From Magnetococcales bacterium (lineage in GTDB: Bacteria; Pseudomonadota; Magnetococcia; Magnetococcales; Magnetaquicoccaceae): DNA of 32,840 bases. The translations under genes were made by a program, and so were the position numbers. The stretch spans positions 1 through 32,840 of the forward strand of contig JADGAY010000027.1 of the NCBI GenBank assembly GCA_015231775.1, given 5' to 3'. The notes under the pieces were generated by a model. The model searched no databases. It was not told the origin of the DNA and saw only the letters and a program-made list of their open reading frames with translations. Below are positions 18,801 to 32,830 of the stretch, one piece after another. Each line of letters starts with the position of its first letter. Position 1 is the stretch's first letter.

Positions 18801-20628
18801 CCAGAGCGCCCTGGCCCTGGACGAGGCGCGGCATGACAAGCACCACATGGGCAATTCGCTGCGCAACATCGGCATCACCCAATTGAAGCTCAAGCGACTT
18901 CCGGAGGCCGAGGCGGCGTTGCGTCGTGCCGAGGCGTTGGCCCTGGAGACCGGGGATCGGATTCTGCAGGCCAAGGGGTGGTTGGCGTTGGCGCAGCTCG
19001 AGCGGGTTCGGGATCACGCCAAGGAGGCGCTGGAGGGGTTTGAGCGCACGGCGGAGTTGTCGAAAAAGATCGGTCTGGCCGAGGTGCGTTGGCGGGGGTT
19101 GACCGGTGCCGCCGGGGCGTTGCGGAGTCTGGGTCGGGACGAGGAGGCCCTGGAGCGGCACGTCGAGGCGATCCAGGTGGTCGAGGGGTTGCGTGCGCCG
19201 CTGGGGATCGACACCCTGCGGCATGGATTTTTGGAGGACAAGCAGGAGCTGTATCGGGACATGATCGTCCTGTTGGCCGATCGTGGGCGGGAGCGTGAGG
19301 CGTTCGATCTGTTGGAGCGTTCCCGTTCCGGAGATTTCCAGGATCTGTTGGCCTCTGGAAGTGCCATCGAGGTGCATGGGGCGGATGAGGCCCGTTTGAA
19401 GCAGGTCAACGCCCTGTTCGCGGAGGTGGAGAGCCGGGCGCGGGCGTTGGTGGCCCTCAAAGGGGCGGAGGCGACGTTGTGGTCCGACTATCGGGCCAAG
19501 CGTGCCGAGGCCGAGGAGGCGTTGGTGACGTTGCGCGTTCGGAGTCCCGGTCTGGCGGCGCGGGTTTCGGTGGCGCCGGTCACGCTGGAGCGGTTTGAAA
19601 AGGTGTTGCCCGCCGGCGTGGGTGTGGCGAGCTACTTCGTGACCGAAAAGGAGCTGTTCATCTGGTTCACGCGCGCTGGAAAAACCCGTTTCAAGCGTGT
19701 TCCCGTGGGGGAGGTGCGTCTGGAGGAGACGATCCGCGCCTATCGCGACGCCATGCAGAATCAGGCGAGGGTGGATCGGCTGCTCACCCGTCTGCATGAT
19801 TGGTTGATCGAGCCGTTGGCCGAGGATCTGGAGGGGGTGACCCATCTGGGGATCATTCCGCACCGGTCGTTGCACGTGGTGGCCTTTGCCGCGCTGCGTG
19901 CGCCGGAGGGGTGGTTGATCGACCGTTTTCCGCTTTTTTACGAGCCTTCCGCCGCGTTGCTGGAACGGGCGTTGGCGCGACCAAGCGGTGAGAAGCCCAT
20001 GGAAGGGCGGGTGTTGGCCATCGGCAATCCGGATCTGGGGGATGCGGATTTTGATCTGGCCATGGCCGAGTTCGAGGCCGAGAGTGTACGCGGCAACTTC
20101 AATGAGGGGGATCTGCTCAAGGGGAAGAAGGCCACCAAGGGGTGGATTCTCGACCATATCGGCGACTATTCGGTGATTCACATTGCCGCGCACGGGGATT
20201 TTCAGAACATCAATCCGCTCTTTTCCTCCCTTTGGCTGGCGAGTGGGGAGAAATCTGGCGCTGGGAAGCGGGAGCGTGGGGAGATTCCTTCGGAGGTTGG
20301 CCGGTTGACCGCCCGTGAGGTGGCGGGTTTGCCGATTCGGGCGGAACTGGTGACCCTGAGTGCCTGTCAGACTGGATTGGGGCAGTTGCGTGGCAGTGAA
20401 TTGTTGGGATTGAACCGGGCGTTCTTGTATGCCGGCACCCGTAGTGTGCTTTCGTCGTTGTGGCGGGTGGATGATCTGGCCACGGCCTTGTTGATGAAGC
20501 ATTTTTACCGGTATCACAATCACATGGGCAAGGCGGAGGCGTTGCGGCAGGCGCAGTTGTTGGTGCGGCAGGCGCAGCCCCATCCGGCCAATTGGGCGGG
20601 TTTTGCGTTGGTGGGGGAGTATCGGTGA
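12847..20628 (+). CDS. Giant predicted secreted protein (~2593 aa): signal peptide - TolB-like/PD40 propeller - TPR array - CHAT-like degenerate region - TPR array - C-terminal CHAT (caspase-like) protease domain
   Basis: MSRLLIGLLWIVSLFSGFAQAEP signal peptide. PD40-like FSPTVSADGRWLVYVSNRSGNRDIWL. About ten ~40-aa TPR-like units at 17990-19200. CHAT motifs HIAAHGDF (20179-) and VTLSACQTGLGQLRGSELLGLNRAFLYAGTRSVLSSLWRVDDLATALLMKHFY. Confidence 0.9.
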   Translation: MSRLLIGLLWIVSLFSGFAQAEPVVAHPDFDFSPTVSADGRWLVYVSNRSGNRDIWLQEITSGNTGLSRQLTDHPSADEQPSLDPTGARLLYVSHEQDPRGDIVLMDLKTKARERLTDRAFGEQSPLWLPDGKGFLFTRQDAPGMPVAVLRRLLGDDEATVWVKGASACTPTVGAWLVCSREGRLIALRAGANGADEGSLKNLTLGPEWDLEPRFLPPDRLIFTRVSPDDDSRSALWMARFTPEQGISAFYRLTPDGDSPRHPAVAGEAIIFGDARDGEIHRLEIPTLLADLTAPDRAREKGFALLASGKSGEGMRILENLFLNPEPIPEAERFGFDWEYLDLLLESDALDRAQAVVERYRRAAGDGGLRAAIQGVVVPLLLELPRLGADEAEARLARGLEAIEAIARRQPGSEAVRVEARIAASRLLLLGGDTAMALARLNGLESLRDRDDRVRVLLARSRVLERVGDGPGRKQILLKVIELVGEKHRWGERAVARLVALAEEGGKFPRQIEALQTLMREHPGIGRLAVVAWSRIATLHQENGDEERCVAALEALLKLEALTLRERSRAIGWKAERLIRLEDYDRAAAAYAEWRNVKGVSETEAARAATLEIRQRVRAARKLAELGDPKVALKRLTALLVDHPESVEAHRAGVALRVRLQGAAPVVAHYEQWLKEDPQAPSRRYALALALTHVEPIDHERLIGMLQAVVEEAPDVAAHHQTLAWVHEQFERSGKGERGHLEQALQGYTAALRLTDAATAPQDEADLLLNLGHVHHAMRNHGEAFRYWQRWTQRKRPLADPLAHALLYRKMGESAFKTDRSQEAAQYYRQALALLPADRTLVRLELTERLALAQQTLGEHARAALGFAQALEMNLAENRTGNLALLQRNIAFNLHQATRPASTPEEAPVDREAVRTALAGYLKSLDWLKKHGKEDRPPEKGWFSLQLALGENGSQAALGFDLNGEEKLLFGLVSTLHQALDAPEQALADLERKRKLLESGGVLEAGSQKAELAVVLNRLGQLHVRLKQFGPAWERTLDSLALTEALHLQAGVRANLYNLSKIAVERIVAGEAHDPAWGVLLAAKLEGPDWERTQPKLAFFTLANVAFLLAQPLDGVALPKGGGEAGRMARWHAWLEARGRCDGFYRRAEALLHADKGFGARELWSHQLRIKLNRLVIAQEADKEEAAAQLRGEIETLSSAGLAEGGWIVALLEAEGSTDPQVRDARLDAAIEGALAWPAPLHPRGAGRILAPFYERLIALRVGRLVDGGALEAALAVGERLERMRLALLLNDRLGRAFFLNGLEGERGEIEALLRGLEAVSLGRKRAANEAAWKGWRAGLAGLRASHPEAAGWFSPAEPARAAYALISEQRPYLRHLPGEAGGHLFLVTGPGQIRHAHVEADGRIRDGASLRDRIAGAEWLHAALPGGIEGGEIARLLEQKTVARVSGLEDLVVGDRRRGVWSGRVAVSGVVELAFDPTPDAPPRRVVPLVRGAEREPSELLQPSHAFMSLLPLTSLALPVPGVDGDVARLSLADFRLAEGQGALLVTGAALADGNERMLLEAALQRAGFAHGILVDAGEKPELVTRVWRDYLAHLERMPPLLALETAWKGRGEKRANPFRFSGRAGWEGEGARELFEAEVAASGRLKEAGRVEEAVGRLENAMALARRAGREGEIGTLTGRAVALWSGLGEDGRAAALQGWWLERLKAAGTTGDLKARAHHGLGVLLARLERYEAAMPHLDEAMRLWERHGEGGRPGAKASGEVARGVVAENRGLAGEALHRFELALELDGRRQDSAAMAAHHLRLGRIHLHRLYRPDPALQAFEQAVALYEAVGDRVGVGRARLEMVLARIGMGELEAAGRELEGARRLADESRDGALGAEVALREATIAWYRGAYQTALQALERVEPWIETSRDPRLTIQLANSRGLIYWSLNEPDLATRHLDAAIELAKKRNLPGELAASLNNRGLIERQRGEPAAALASFQSALALDEARHDKHHMGNSLRNIGITQLKLKRLPEAEAALRRAEALALETGDRILQAKGWLALAQLERVRDHAKEALEGFERTAELSKKIGLAEVRWRGLTGAAGALRSLGRDEEALERHVEAIQVVEGLRAPLGIDTLRHGFLEDKQELYRDMIVLLADRGREREAFDLLERSRSGDFQDLLASGSAIEVHGADEARLKQVNALFAEVESRARALVALKGAEATLWSDYRAKRAEAEEALVTLRVRSPGLAARVSVAPVTLERFEKVLPAGVGVASYFVTEKELFIWFTRAGKTRFKRVPVGEVRLEETIRAYRDAMQNQARVDRLLTRLHDWLIEPLAEDLEGVTHLGIIPHRSLHVVAFAALRAPEGWLIDRFPLFYEPSAALLERALARPSGEKPMEGRVLAIGNPDLGDADFDLAMAEFEAESVRGNFNEGDLLKGKKATKGWILDHIGDYSVIHIAAHGDFQNINPLFSSLWLASGEKSGAGKRERGEIPSEVGRLTAREVAGLPIRAELVTLSACQTGLGQLRGSELLGLNRAFLYAGTRSVLSSLWRVDDLATALLMKHFYRYHNHMGKAEALRQAQLLVRQAQPHPANWAGFALVGEYR

Positions 20629-20662
20629 GGGGGGGTGGGATGATGATGGAAAAATCGTCGCC

Positions 20663-20880
20663 GGGGTCCGGGGACCGGCGCGGTCCCCGGCGGAGGCCGG
20701 AGGCAGAGCCTCCGGGACTTTGTTTTTGATTTTGTCCTTGCCTTTGGCGCGCTCTTCAAAAAAAGCGATTTTCACGCCTTTTGTGAAAATCGCTTGCGCG
20801 CAGCCTTGGAAGTGGCGTCGTTTTGCGTTTTTGGCAAAACGACGCCACTTCGCCTTGCCCCAAACAGGCCGCCGGAGGCT
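20663..20880. repeat. Four-hairpin intergenic module, forward copy (C 20668-20690, D 20697-20715, A 20765-20793, B 20809-20851)
   Basis: Perfect arms: ccggggaccg/cggtccccgg; ccggaggc/gcctccgg; gcgattttcac/gtgaaaatcgc; gaagtggcgtcgttttgc/gcaaaacgacgccacttc. Confidence 0.93.
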
Positions 20881-20889
20881 TCTCTCCCA

Positions 20890-21089
20890 CCGCGAGCAAT
20901 TCGCCCGGATTCGTTGCCAAAAAGCGGCAACGAATCCGGGCACATGAGACCGCGCGCTTGCGCGATTTTTCGCAAAAAGCGCGAAAAATCGCTTATCGTG
21001 AAAAGCGCGCGAAAGGAAAAAGTCATACAATCCAAGTCCCAAGGGCTTTGCCCTTGGATCCCACCAGGGGCCACGGGCCCCTGGACCCC
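20890..21089. repeat. Four-hairpin intergenic module, inverted copy (B 20903-20941, A 20962-20992, D 21039-21057, C 21064-21084)
   Basis: Perfect arms: gcccggattcgttgcc/ggcaacgaatccgggc; gcgatttttcgc/gcgaaaaatcgc; ccaagggc/gcccttgg; ccaggggcc/ggcccctgg. Its reverse complement aligns with the forward copy outside the stems. Confidence 0.92.
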
Positions 21090-21127
21090 GCCAGTCAAAC
21101 CTCCCATCCAGTCATGGTCACCACGTC

Positions 21128-22333
21128 ATGGAAGCATCGGGTTTAAAGAGACATATCATCATCCTCGCCCTGGCCCAGGGACTGCTGACCCTCAACAACG
21201 TCACGCTGATCGCCATCAATGGCCTGGCCGGTCTGCTGCTCGCCCCCAACGCCACCTGGGCCACCCTGCCCGTGGCCGCGTTCGTGGCCGGGGCCGCCCT
21301 GGCCACCCTGCCGGCTTCGTTCTACATGCTGCGCCATGGCCGTCAGAAGGGGTTCCGCCTCGGGGCCCTGCTCGGCCTGCTCGGCGGCCTGCTGGCCATG
21401 CTTGGCGTGATGGAACAGATCTTTGCGTTGATTTGTCTCGGCAGCCTCCTCTCCGGCTTTCATAACGCCTTCGGCCAACAATACCGCTTCGCCGCCGCCG
21501 ATGTCGCGCCCGAAGCGTGGAAAAGCCGCGCCATCTCCTGGACTCTGGCTGGCGGCATCCTCGGCGGCGTGCTGGGTCCGGAGTTGAGCAAAATCACCCG
21601 CGATCTGATCCCCCCGCTGTTTGCCGCCTCCTACGGCTCGTTGACCCTCTTCACCCTGCTGGCCTGGTGGGTGCTTGGACGGCTGGAACTCCCCCCGCTC
21701 CACAAAGAGCGGTTCGCCACGCCAGGACGGCCAGCCTGGCGTATCGTCACCCAGCCGGTCTATCTGGTGGCGGTGCTTGCCTCGACCACCGGGTATGGGG
21801 TCATGAACCTCTTGATGTCCGCCACCCCCCTGGTGATGCAGGCCTGCTCCCTGCCGTTCGGCGACGCCGCCTTCGTGCTCGAATGGCATGTGCTCGGCAT
21901 GTTCGTGCCGTCGTTCTTCACCGGCTCGCTGATCCATCGCTTCGGCGTCTTGCGCGTGCTCCTCGCTGGGGTGCTGCTGTTGTTCGGGTGCGGAGCCATC
22001 GCCCTGGCCGGACAGACCCTGGCCTATTTCTGGTGGGCCCTGCTGCTGCTGGGGATCGGCTGGAACTTTCTCTACATCGGCGGCACCACCCTTCTGACCA
22101 CCACCTACCGTCCCGAGGAGAAGGCCCATGCCCAGGGATTCCATGATCTGGTGATCTTTGGCGTGCAGACTATGACCGCCCTCTCCTCGGGCATGATCGC
22201 CACCACCAGCGGTTGGGATGGGCTCAATCGCGATGCCTTGCCCGCCATCGCCGTCACCACCCTGGCCATCCTCTGGCTCATGATCCGTCGTCCGAGCCTG
22301 GATGCGGCGGCCATGGGTCGAGGAGCGGGTTAA
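21128..22333 (+). CDS. MFS transporter
   Basis: About 12 hydrophobic segments: LALAQGLLTLNNVTLIAINGLAGLLLAP..., MNLLMSATPLVMQACSLPFGDAAFVLEWHVLGMFVPSFFTGSLIHRFG. Confidence 0.85.
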   Translation: MEASGLKRHIIILALAQGLLTLNNVTLIAINGLAGLLLAPNATWATLPVAAFVAGAALATLPASFYMLRHGRQKGFRLGALLGLLGGLLAMLGVMEQIFALICLGSLLSGFHNAFGQQYRFAAADVAPEAWKSRAISWTLAGGILGGVLGPELSKITRDLIPPLFAASYGSLTLFTLLAWWVLGRLELPPLHKERFATPGRPAWRIVTQPVYLVAVLASTTGYGVMNLLMSATPLVMQACSLPFGDAAFVLEWHVLGMFVPSFFTGSLIHRFGVLRVLLAGVLLLFGCGAIALAGQTLAYFWWALLLLGIGWNFLYIGGTTLLTTTYRPEEKAHAQGFHDLVIFGVQTMTALSSGMIATTSGWDGLNRDALPAIAVTTLAILWLMIRRPSLDAAAMGRGAG

Positions 22334-29866: not shown

Positions 29867-30110
29867 TTTGTTGAGTGACAAGATTCTGATACAAGCTGCC
29901 GCGCTGGTGGCCAGGCACAGAACCAAGTCCGTTCAAGCGCATTGGCGGCCACTTCCCGGTCAGGCGGAGTTGATCGATCTGTTGCGCAGTGTATTCGAGC
30001 AGGCCGGAGTGGCTTTTGAGAAACAAAAGAGCGTGCTTGACACCGTGGCCCCCTTTGTTTTGGCCAAGGATCCGGCGGCGGCACGGAATTGGTCGGAGTC
30101 CGGGAAGTGA
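29784..30110 (+). pseudogene. Short ORF resembling the C-terminal lid of a MoxR-type AAA ATPase; probable deletion remnant
   Basis: FALPKEEQKVQEHLLKIAQAHFGNLLSDKILIQAAALVARHRTKSVQAHWRPLPGQAELIDLLRSVFEQAG...VLDTVAPFVLAKDPAAARNW; no Walker A/B motifs. Overlaps the trypco2-like frame. Confidence 0.4.
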
Positions 30111-32830
30111 GCAGGCGGGCGCTGCTTGGCCATGCCGATCTGGTGCGACTGGCCGGATCCTTGGACGCGGAGCGCGTGGAGGAACTGGCCTATCTGCTTG
30201 GCTATGAGAGGGAAATCAAGCCGACTCTTGCACCACCACCATCCCGGATTGAGGGCGAGGATGGCGGCAGACCGGTTAAGGAATTGCCTCGGCAAATTCT
30301 GGCTGCGCCTTTGACACCGGACTATTTTTGGAGACAGGAGCGCTTCACCATCCAGTTGAGTGATCCAGAGTTAAAGAAACGCCGAGATATCAAGCCTGAA
30401 AGTCAACGAGTGACTTATCCAGGCTGGCGGGCACGGCCCGTCATCGCGCCACCCTTTCAACCCCTGGCTCCCTGGCGGGAGTTGGTCGTGCGGTTGCGTC
30501 ATGCGCTCGGTGCCGTTGGCATGGGACCAGAGATCGACATCGACCGGGTTGTTGCTCGCATCAGTGCGGGCAAGGTGCTCGATCGATTGCCGCGCGTGCC
30601 GGTGTTCCGTTGGAGCGGTCGGTTGCAGGTGATCCTGGATCGGGGTCGCCGGTTGATTCCCTATTTCGACGATCAACGTTACGTTGCCGCCCATCTTCGG
30701 ACTTTGGTGGCCTCGTCTGATTTCATGCCGGCCATGATGGGGGACGGGGATGACATGCCTCGCTCGTTTGCCAAACACGGGGAGGAGATCCCCTACCAGT
30801 GGCCACAGCCTGGCACCCCGGTGCTGGTGATGGGTGATCTGGGGTTGCTGGCTGCGTCAGGGGGCGCAAGCCATTATTGGCTTGAGTTCGGGCAGTGTTT
30901 GCGAAGGGAGGGATGCCGTCCCGTGGTTCTGTTCCCTGGGGATCCCGTCAGATGCCCAAGGGAGATGGTCGAGGTCTGGAGCGTGGTGCCATGGGAGCGT
31001 TCCGGAAGGTTGTCGCTGGTGGATTTTAAGGTGGAACCGGTTCTGCTATTGTTGCGCCTGCTCTCCCCGGCTTTGCGCATCGAACCCGGATTGCTGCGCG
31101 CCGTGCGTCGGCTTCTGCCCGAGGGCACGATGGATGCCGGTGTTGAGGCCGAAGTGTGGCAGCACCCCTGGTTGAAGAGCGCCTCTCCCGCCGGAGCAAC
31201 GCTGAATGCCCGCCAACAGTTGGTGTTGCGTCGAGAGTTCGTGGAGTGGGTTGGGGATGAGCTGCGCCAGGAAGTGGCGCGAACGATTCGGGCGTGGCGG
31301 GCCGAACTGCCCGAGGAGATCTGGTTCCGGGAGTTGTTGTGTCTGGACCCGGCGGCGCAAGCCGGTATTCCGGGCTTTGATCTGGAGGATGCCCGACAGT
31401 ACGAACGGGCATTTTGCGCCGAGTTGAGCGGGACCGGAAAGGGTGTTACGCCGCATGGCCTGGATCTGATTTGGCAGGAGGCGAGCGTGGCACCGGCCTC
31501 CCGCTATTTCTGGTACGATCCCGAGGTCGGGTCCATGTTGGTCCAGTTGAACCATCGGTTGAACAGGGACCGCCCGGATTATCAACTACCTGAGGGGGTC
31601 ACCCCCGATCAGATTGGCCCGGATCCAGAGGACCAGCCGATTGATATCCAGGTAATCCAGATCGGTTCGGAACTTCACCTGAGAACCTCTCAACACGACG
31701 TGGGGAGTTTTCTCGCCCGGATCCGCACCGTGAATGGGTTGGTGACGGTGGGTGGGGTTGAGGAGGGAGAACCGATACTCGATACGGATAATGCGCCATT
31801 TTATCAAGGTGGTGATGATGCACCGTTTTACAAGGGTGGCGATGACGCCCCCTTTTGGAGTGAGGATGATAAGGCTCCGTTTTGGAGTGGCGACGAAAAA
31901 GCTCCATTTTGGAAATTCGGTCACTCCCGCTCCAAGGGTGATCCCGCCTTCTGGAAATCCGGCGCGCCGCCTGCCTGGGCGGACGCCTGGGGATGGGACG
32001 AGTATGGCGCGTGGGTCGAATTCGTCGTCAAGGGGGTGCGCCAGCGCATGCGCTGGATCCCGCCGGGGGAGTTCATGATGGGCTCGCCGGAAGACGAACA
32101 TGACCGGTATCCTGACGAAGGTCCACAGCACCGGGTGACCATCCGGGCCGGATACTGGCTGTGCGATACCGCTTGTACGCAAGAGATGTGGCAGGCGGTG
32201 ATGGGGAGTAATCCCAGCCATTTTCAGTCCCCGGATCGCCCGGTGGAGCAGGTGAGTTTTGAGGATGCGCGTGCGTTTTGTAAACAATTGGAGTCACTTC
32301 TGCCCGGTTTGGGCTTGGGTCTGCCCAGTGAGGCGCAATGGGAGTATGCCTGTCGGGCCGGGATCACGACACCGTTCTCCTTTACCACCACCACCATCAC
32401 CACGGAGCAGGTGAATTTTGATGGTAATCATCCCTATCTCCCGGATGATGCGAAGGGTGAGTATCGTGAGACGACCGTGCCTGTGACCTCTCTTCCTGAG
32501 AATCCCTGGGGGCTGTATGAAATGCACGGCAATGTACAGGAGTGGTGCCAGGATACTTGGCATGAAAACTACTCTAACGCACCCAAGGATGGGAGTGCCT
32601 GGGTGGATGTGAATGTTGATAGCCACGTGTTGCGTGGCGGATCTTGGAGTTCCTTGGCTCGCGTCTCACGGTCGGCATTTCGGCACTGGTACGATCCGTT
32701 GTATCGCTTTGATAATATTGGCTTCCGCTGTGCCCGAGTTCAGCAAGCTCAAGCTGGAGGCAAGGAGCAAGCCGAGCCGGTCTCTGCGGAATGTGTCAAT
32801 GAAAATGAGACACTCGTCTTCAGAATTTAA
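30107..32830 (+). CDS. SAV_2336-like N-terminal domain fused to a formylglycine-generating-enzyme (FGE-sulfatase/SUMF1-like) domain
   Basis: N-terminal part: LPRVPVFRWSGRLQVILDRGRRLIPYFDDQ...GTPVLVMGDLGLL...FGQCLRREGCRPVVLFPGDP. C-terminal part: MRWIPPGEFMMGSPEDEHDRYPDEGPQHRVTI...PVEQVSFEDARAFCKQL...LPSEAQWEYACRAG...NPWGLYEMHGNVQEWCQD...VLRGGSWSS...IGFRCAR. GTGA overlap with the upstream frame; TTG 30089 is an alternative start. Confidence 0.82.
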   Translation: MSRRALLGHADLVRLAGSLDAERVEELAYLLGYEREIKPTLAPPPSRIEGEDGGRPVKELPRQILAAPLTPDYFWRQERFTIQLSDPELKKRRDIKPESQRVTYPGWRARPVIAPPFQPLAPWRELVVRLRHALGAVGMGPEIDIDRVVARISAGKVLDRLPRVPVFRWSGRLQVILDRGRRLIPYFDDQRYVAAHLRTLVASSDFMPAMMGDGDDMPRSFAKHGEEIPYQWPQPGTPVLVMGDLGLLAASGGASHYWLEFGQCLRREGCRPVVLFPGDPVRCPREMVEVWSVVPWERSGRLSLVDFKVEPVLLLLRLLSPALRIEPGLLRAVRRLLPEGTMDAGVEAEVWQHPWLKSASPAGATLNARQQLVLRREFVEWVGDELRQEVARTIRAWRAELPEEIWFRELLCLDPAAQAGIPGFDLEDARQYERAFCAELSGTGKGVTPHGLDLIWQEASVAPASRYFWYDPEVGSMLVQLNHRLNRDRPDYQLPEGVTPDQIGPDPEDQPIDIQVIQIGSELHLRTSQHDVGSFLARIRTVNGLVTVGGVEEGEPILDTDNAPFYQGGDDAPFYKGGDDAPFWSEDDKAPFWSGDEKAPFWKFGHSRSKGDPAFWKSGAPPAWADAWGWDEYGAWVEFVVKGVRQRMRWIPPGEFMMGSPEDEHDRYPDEGPQHRVTIRAGYWLCDTACTQEMWQAVMGSNPSHFQSPDRPVEQVSFEDARAFCKQLESLLPGLGLGLPSEAQWEYACRAGITTPFSFTTTTITTEQVNFDGNHPYLPDDAKGEYRETTVPVTSLPENPWGLYEMHGNVQEWCQDTWHENYSNAPKDGSAWVDVNVDSHVLRGGSWSSLARVSRSAFRHWYDPLYRFDNIGFRCARVQQAQAGGKEQAEPVSAECVNENETLVFRI
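31787..31921 (+). repeat. In-frame tandem repeat, 5 x 27 bp, encoding [DE]-x-APF-[YW]-xxx
   Basis: DNAPFYQGG / DDAPFYKGG / DDAPFWSED / DKAPFWSGD / EKAPFWKFG, uninterrupted 9-aa period between the N-terminal and FGE domains. Confidence 0.95.

Follow-up and report, generated by a model that had tools for sequence, protein, structure and literature searches.

A dispersed multi-hairpin repeat with variable stems at gene 3' ends in the Magnetococcales

How a paired stem can change without passing through a damaged intermediate is a long-standing question for the evolution of both RNA and palindromes. REP and BIME repeats are short intergenic palindromes of alternating orientation and high copy number that lie behind genes and rarely between divergent genes (PMC3733652). 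REPINs, which RAYT transposases mobilise, are hairpin-forming inverted doublets, non-coding and dispersed, whose variable inner part carries compensatory changes (PMC3116915). A third precedent comes from hairpins shaped by template switching, inferred earlier from rRNA and microRNA histories, in which several paired bases change in one step, the loop is kept and flanking sequence is occasionally copied to the opposite arm (PMC8794818). Here we describe an element from a Magnetococcales bacterium that shares features with all three systems. A literature search on repeats of the Magnetococcales found no paper. The feature is best explained as a copy of an ancient non-coding repeat of this order, which comprises several hairpins, is dispersed and lies at gene 3' ends.

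The window, the whole stretch of 32,840 nucleotides that was analysed, carries the element at 20655-21096, where it fills the intergenic space that separates a CHAT-domain gene, whose stop is at 20628, from an MFS transporter gene starting at 21128. These outer limits were taken from an alignment of full copies and extend slightly beyond the 20663-21089 of the original prediction, which had described two facing copies of a module; the inverted relationship holds, and the two are really facing halves of one element that recurs throughout the genome. The halves are inverted relatives with arms of 35 nt and 83% complementarity, and each follows the same inward order of cap hairpins C and D, T-rich linker, GCGCGC, hairpin A, GCGCGC and hairpin B. 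All eight hairpins originally predicted are present at the coordinates given for them. In the left half, on the plus strand, cap hairpin C (20668-20690; CCGGGGACCG/CGGTCCCCGG) is followed by cap hairpin D (20697-20715), which has a terminator-like T-rich tract on its inward side, and by the linker (20716-20746), whose length differs among copies. Hairpin A, with its blocks, spans 20747-20801 (arms 20763-20775 and 20783-20795, loop GCCTTTT); the enclosing GCGCGC blocks, at 20747-20752 and 20796-20801, are self-complementary. Hairpin B (20809-20851) has 18 bp and the loop GTTTTTG, and the outer half of its stem is hypervariable among copies. A centre with the framework AAACAGGCCGCC... (20852-20902) separates the halves and is assigned to neither strand. 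The right half, on the minus strand, consists of hairpin B' (20903-20941; 16 bp, loop AAAAAGC on the plus strand and GCTTTTT on the minus), hairpin A' between GCGCGC blocks (20952-21010; arms 20962-20973 and 20981-20992), and cap hairpins D' (21039-21057) and C' (21064-21084). The normal form of A' contains an asymmetric internal loop, TTGC opposite TTATCGTGAAAA. A second, truncated half-element on the plus strand, comprising an A and a B hairpin (GGTCGTGACGGGTATTTTGC), lies at the contig start (1-94). It had been claimed that every stem is perfect and that the A and B loops have 7 nt; this is true of the window copy, but some other copies have imperfect stems, and in the same genome 47 of 53 B stems and 20 of 29 B' stems are fully Watson-Crick over the scored length. 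Elsewhere in the window, 27-bp tandem repeats (31787-31913) lie within a long ORF (30089-32830) that has an FGE-sulfatase domain.

The element is not a product of chance, since both strands fold 12-16 standard deviations below dinucleotide shuffles (z -12.2 and -15.8) and a B-core pattern occurs 50 times in its own genome, against 0 for a reversed control pattern. The free pyrimidine/purine pair in these 50 cores is always T-A or C-G and never T-G or C-A. BLAST gave 76 matches to the element in this genome (a MAG, hereafter G000), many of them full length at 72-85% identity, a number that is a lower bound because the 3.82-Mb assembly is in 389 contigs and many matches fall at contig ends. Many contigs of the assembly start or stop inside the repeat, which is probably a main cause of the fragmentation. 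At least 50 A/B modules were counted in G000 and about 47 in the genome of a sister species (G007). The covariance-model scan proposed in the original prediction did find further copies: a model made from 23 left halves matched 26 of 80 genomes, amounting to 26 of 48 Magnetococcales and 0 of 32 others of the phylum. Exact matches of a framework word were to records of the MAG Magnetococcales bacterium nHA4bin8, and no Rfam family matched above its gathering score. In other families of the order both hairpins retain a T-rich loop of 7 or 8 nt, on stems of unrelated sequence. We hold the family and its structure, as described, to be practically certain. Five of the outer flanks (L046, L088, L099, L012 and L085) bear an additional outer module (AAACCGCNACCATCACGGGATGCGTAGTTTTTAC) beside the caps. 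Another repeat, about 140 bp long and likewise dispersed, has the palindromes TTTGGTGATTCCA/TGGAATCACCAAA and GGCTGTTTGG/CCAAACAGCC and was seen at L060:3344-3490 and in about 35 places of G000.

Variation within the family is concentrated in the stems. In an alignment of 23 copies the pairwise difference is 0.04 and 0.09 in the framework blocks, 0.07 in the inner stems and 0.19-0.24 in the loops, and it rises to 0.36 in the outer A stem and 0.30 in the outer B stem, which makes diversity in the outer stems 3-10 times that of the framework. The copies thus recur and their outer stems are far less conserved than their framework, and the family of variable stems on a constant framework, as first proposed, is borne out by these differences. 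Pairing is retained throughout. Across 34 pairs in the 23 copies (782 cells), 99% are paired, and 86 are changed on both sides and 0 on one side only, counts that are not of independent events given the kinship of the copies. The covariation score is 0.322 against 0.094 when shuffled (0 of 500), and slid controls leave 30-52% of cells paired. When the variable columns of all A, A', B and B' copies in G000 are pooled, 950 cells are Watson-Crick (98%), 8 are G-U, 3 are A-C and 6 are other combinations; re-dealing the arms brings the Watson-Crick share down to 45-54%. The outer B arm takes 32 distinct sequences among the 53 copies of G000, and in 103 of 110 A-type hairpins a T-run on one arm faces an A-run of equal length on the other (T3/A3 to T8/A8). 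The more distant genome G002 has a 25-bp B hairpin at five sites, each different in an 11-nt stretch and all five perfectly paired. B' variants at L031:~930-1000 and L091:~570-640 carry a second hairpin nested inside the loop. Kissing of the A loop with A' and of B with B' was considered and set aside, the loops within an element being no more alike than shuffled ones overall; exact B/B' loop matches are slightly raised (P about 0.02, uncorrected).

Paired change of this kind is what selection on RNA structure might produce, if the elements were transcribed and their stems kept by stepwise change through G-U intermediates. Such selection would fit the finding that two hairpins with T-rich 7-nt loops are conserved throughout the order, and also the position of the elements behind genes and the strand orientation of the loops, which are never clearly inverted. 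The pattern of change fits it poorly. One-sided changes are absent beside 86 two-sided ones, and G-U, at 8 of 967 variable cells, is not clearly above other mismatches, unlike the frequent GT stem pairing of REP families described as transcribed (PMC3733652); nor does RNA selection predict matched homopolymer lengths or the copying of flanks described below. A structured RNA had been among the first suggestions, and a role as RNA is still conceivable, but the near absence of G-U opposes ordinary compensation at the RNA level, and we consider it quite unlikely that RNA selection accounts for the stems.

Comparison with the sister species allows the changes to be followed in place. Matching of coding flanks put elements of G000 and G007 at the same intergenic site in 12 cases. 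Both flanks were matched at six of these (the window, L019/L081, L095/L172, L037/L177, L041/L179 and the gap upstream of pyrF) and one flank at a further six; the site of L017 is also occupied in G006. The G007 copy at the window's site is partly decayed. In the alignments of orthologous sites stems have been replaced, often between the B subtypes B1 and B2, and are mostly still paired. Seven B pairs, which are hand-checked rows only because automated pairing mismatched several hairpins and its totals were left out, gave 75 columns that are the same, 28 changed on both sides, 2 broken and 0 G-U. At L064:1472-2718 in G007, an AT-rich ORF of 215 aa without a Pfam match (1827-2474) stands between two facing halves; the orthologous site of G000 has a compact element without this ORF.

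The swapping of B1 and B2 at orthologous sites could also mean that copies trade hairpins from a fixed repertoire, by ectopic gene conversion or recombination, and that correction in place contributes little or nothing. Chimeric B hairpins whose 5' and 3' flanks come from different subtypes (L011, L025 and L031) and end caps that are interchangeable, with cap types found on either half, point the same way, and whole-hairpin replacement among dispersed copies could be the source of much stem exchange without in-place correction. As the whole account this is doubtful: the 32 different B arms among 53 copies still call for a source of new paired variants, and no other copy seen could have donated the stems with copied flanks. 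Elements at L018:940 and L020:986 stop at an identical position in the A' loop, beyond which unrelated sequence follows, a pattern that would suit breakage at hairpin tips.

The copied flanks are found in A-type hairpins. Nearly all A-type stems have at most 15 bp, and the exceptions are two G007 copies of 27 bp and 23 bp. In the first (L080/L060) the longer side of the internal loop is present as an exact complement in the other arm, which yields a perfect 27-bp stem, and the 3' flank TCGTGTAAA occurs as its complement in the 5' arm; the G000 orthologue, L013, has the usual asymmetric A' form. In the 23-bp stem, flank was copied in the opposite direction. These two are the only clear flank-copying events, both on one contig of the sister genome, and L045 resembles a third, re-registered case. 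Template switching between arms would be expected to leave such a copy of a flank in the opposite arm. Mechanisms by which arms are copied have been described (PMC8794818, PMC3820800), and loop-primed template switching would retain the loop (PMC8794818), as observed here. An inverted loop, expected at times under template switching, was not clearly seen among about 160 loops, so either the loop-primed form dominates or the loops are under selection.

The original prediction of arm-to-arm copying is therefore favoured by the complete lack of single-sided changes against 86 double-sided ones, a G-U share below 1%, run lengths matched in 103 of 110 hairpins and flanks copied in two sister-genome copies. 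This evidence supports templated copying from arm to arm over stepwise RNA compensation. Multi-base paired changes without single-sided intermediates, together with flank copying, are the marks of hairpins maintained by template switching, and they appear here in a bacterial repeat that is scattered in many copies and can be compared at orthologous sites, rather than in the history of an rRNA or microRNA. While the DNA is single-stranded in replication, the hairpin would fold and, by template switching or quasi-palindrome correction, one arm would template the other; an altered arm would thereby pass its change to its partner in a single step, without a lasting G-U intermediate, and stem variants probably spread by exchange between copies. 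Copying templated by the opposite arm is probably the main source of the paired changes, and we judge it likely, with slightly more reserve, that this and the family features shown hold jointly. It is improbable, to our mind, that the repeats form a fold-defined class in which a dedicated host or element factor recognises, as single-stranded DNA, long hairpins with a strand-oriented T-rich 7-nt loop, a reading in which arm-templated synthesis belongs to the normal cycle and thereby gives each copy a nearly unique, self-consistent stem.

Dispersal of the copies and their inverted ends (GGGGTCC...GGACCCC, with varying cap types), such as MITEs have, bring to mind an actively mobile, non-autonomous element, MITE or REPIN-like, in which a transposase acts on the hairpins and hairpin-templated transposition varies the stems; REPINs with compensatory changes are a precedent (PMC3116915). 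The gap between pyrF and bioA holds an element in G007 (452 bp); it is 24 bp long in G000 and 54 bp long in G005, with a facing pair of caps in G010 and a single cap in G003, so gain or loss of the element does happen. Against mobility stand the 12 sites common to the two species, and no target duplication was recognised on inspection of end alignments. The search for an autonomous partner found none, and no plasmid match was obtained. Of the eight genomes searched, most have Y1 (RAYT-like) genes, but the module does not lie beside them, and G002 carries 30 modules while lacking Y1 genes altogether. The suggested link to a RAYT is thus not supported, a RAYT-driven REPIN is rejected, and the mobile element of the original prediction has weak support from one presence/absence site; we think active mobility unlikely. 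The element has two facing halves, but its variation sits in the long stems of each half, and that of REPINs in the spacer between conserved REPs; no adjacent RAYT is present or, as G002 illustrates, needed. Genes between facing halves exist (L064, and a gene named by eye as trmL-like at L065:460-1400 in G010); an integron-like cassette was nevertheless rejected, most elements of the family having a centre of only about 60 bp, and a fumarase in L087 is merely a gene lying between two elements. The two inverted half-elements at L065 have identical A hairpins and completely different outer B stems.

The genes on either side of the elements are arranged non-randomly. With the orientation of flanking genes called by codon-usage scoring made for this analysis, G000 elements lie between 15 convergent, 16 tandem and 0 divergent gene pairs, and those of other genomes between 10 convergent, 8 tandem and 0 divergent pairs. 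Convergent and divergent pairs are equal in number on a circular chromosome, and 15:0 is for that reason a strong bias. REPs have a similar orientation bias (PMC3733652). T-rich tracts lie on the inward side of the D hairpins and a T-run lies beside A on the other strand; 5 terminator-like sites were found where 1.5 were expected. Judged by sequence, the D hairpin with GACTTTGTTT and, on the minus strand, the A hairpin with its T-run would both qualify as intrinsic terminators, G+C-rich hairpins followed by a T-run. Since the elements stand behind genes, never between divergent ones, and have inward terminator-like hairpins, they may serve as two-sided transcript ends or 3'-protecting structures, a tentative proposal for which we see nearly even chances. 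Each half would offer a hairpin and T-rich tract facing inward to transcripts arriving from its own side, and selection would retain the hairpins and the strand-oriented T-rich 7-nt loops. The window presents a difficulty for this role: with about 33 bp between the end of the element and the MFS start codon, a strong terminator at that place would have to be accompanied by a promoter within the element, and none was found in the window copy.

Set beside the REP/BIME repeats, the element has the same high copy number, extragenic position and avoidance of divergent pairs. It differs in its length of about 440 bp, with four cap hairpins and two long hairpins per half, and in its restriction to one order. 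It has no GTAG-tagged short unit: the 20-40 bp palindrome with GTAG or CGTC at one end is missing, 20656-21100 containing no GTAG or CTAC, and CGTC/GACG occurring there in the outer flank and the B stem and not as hairpin tags. Its stems have almost no G-T pairs, whereas REPs are reported with GT pairing. The element is a new, unusually clean variant of the REP/BIME type of repeat. As a major repeat of the Magnetococcales that had gone undescribed, it breaks assemblies and occupies the 3' ends of genes. With dozens of copies in each genome to serve as natural replicates, orthologous sites to compare between sister species and a set of stems that extends across the order, the family makes template-switch models directly testable in bacteria.
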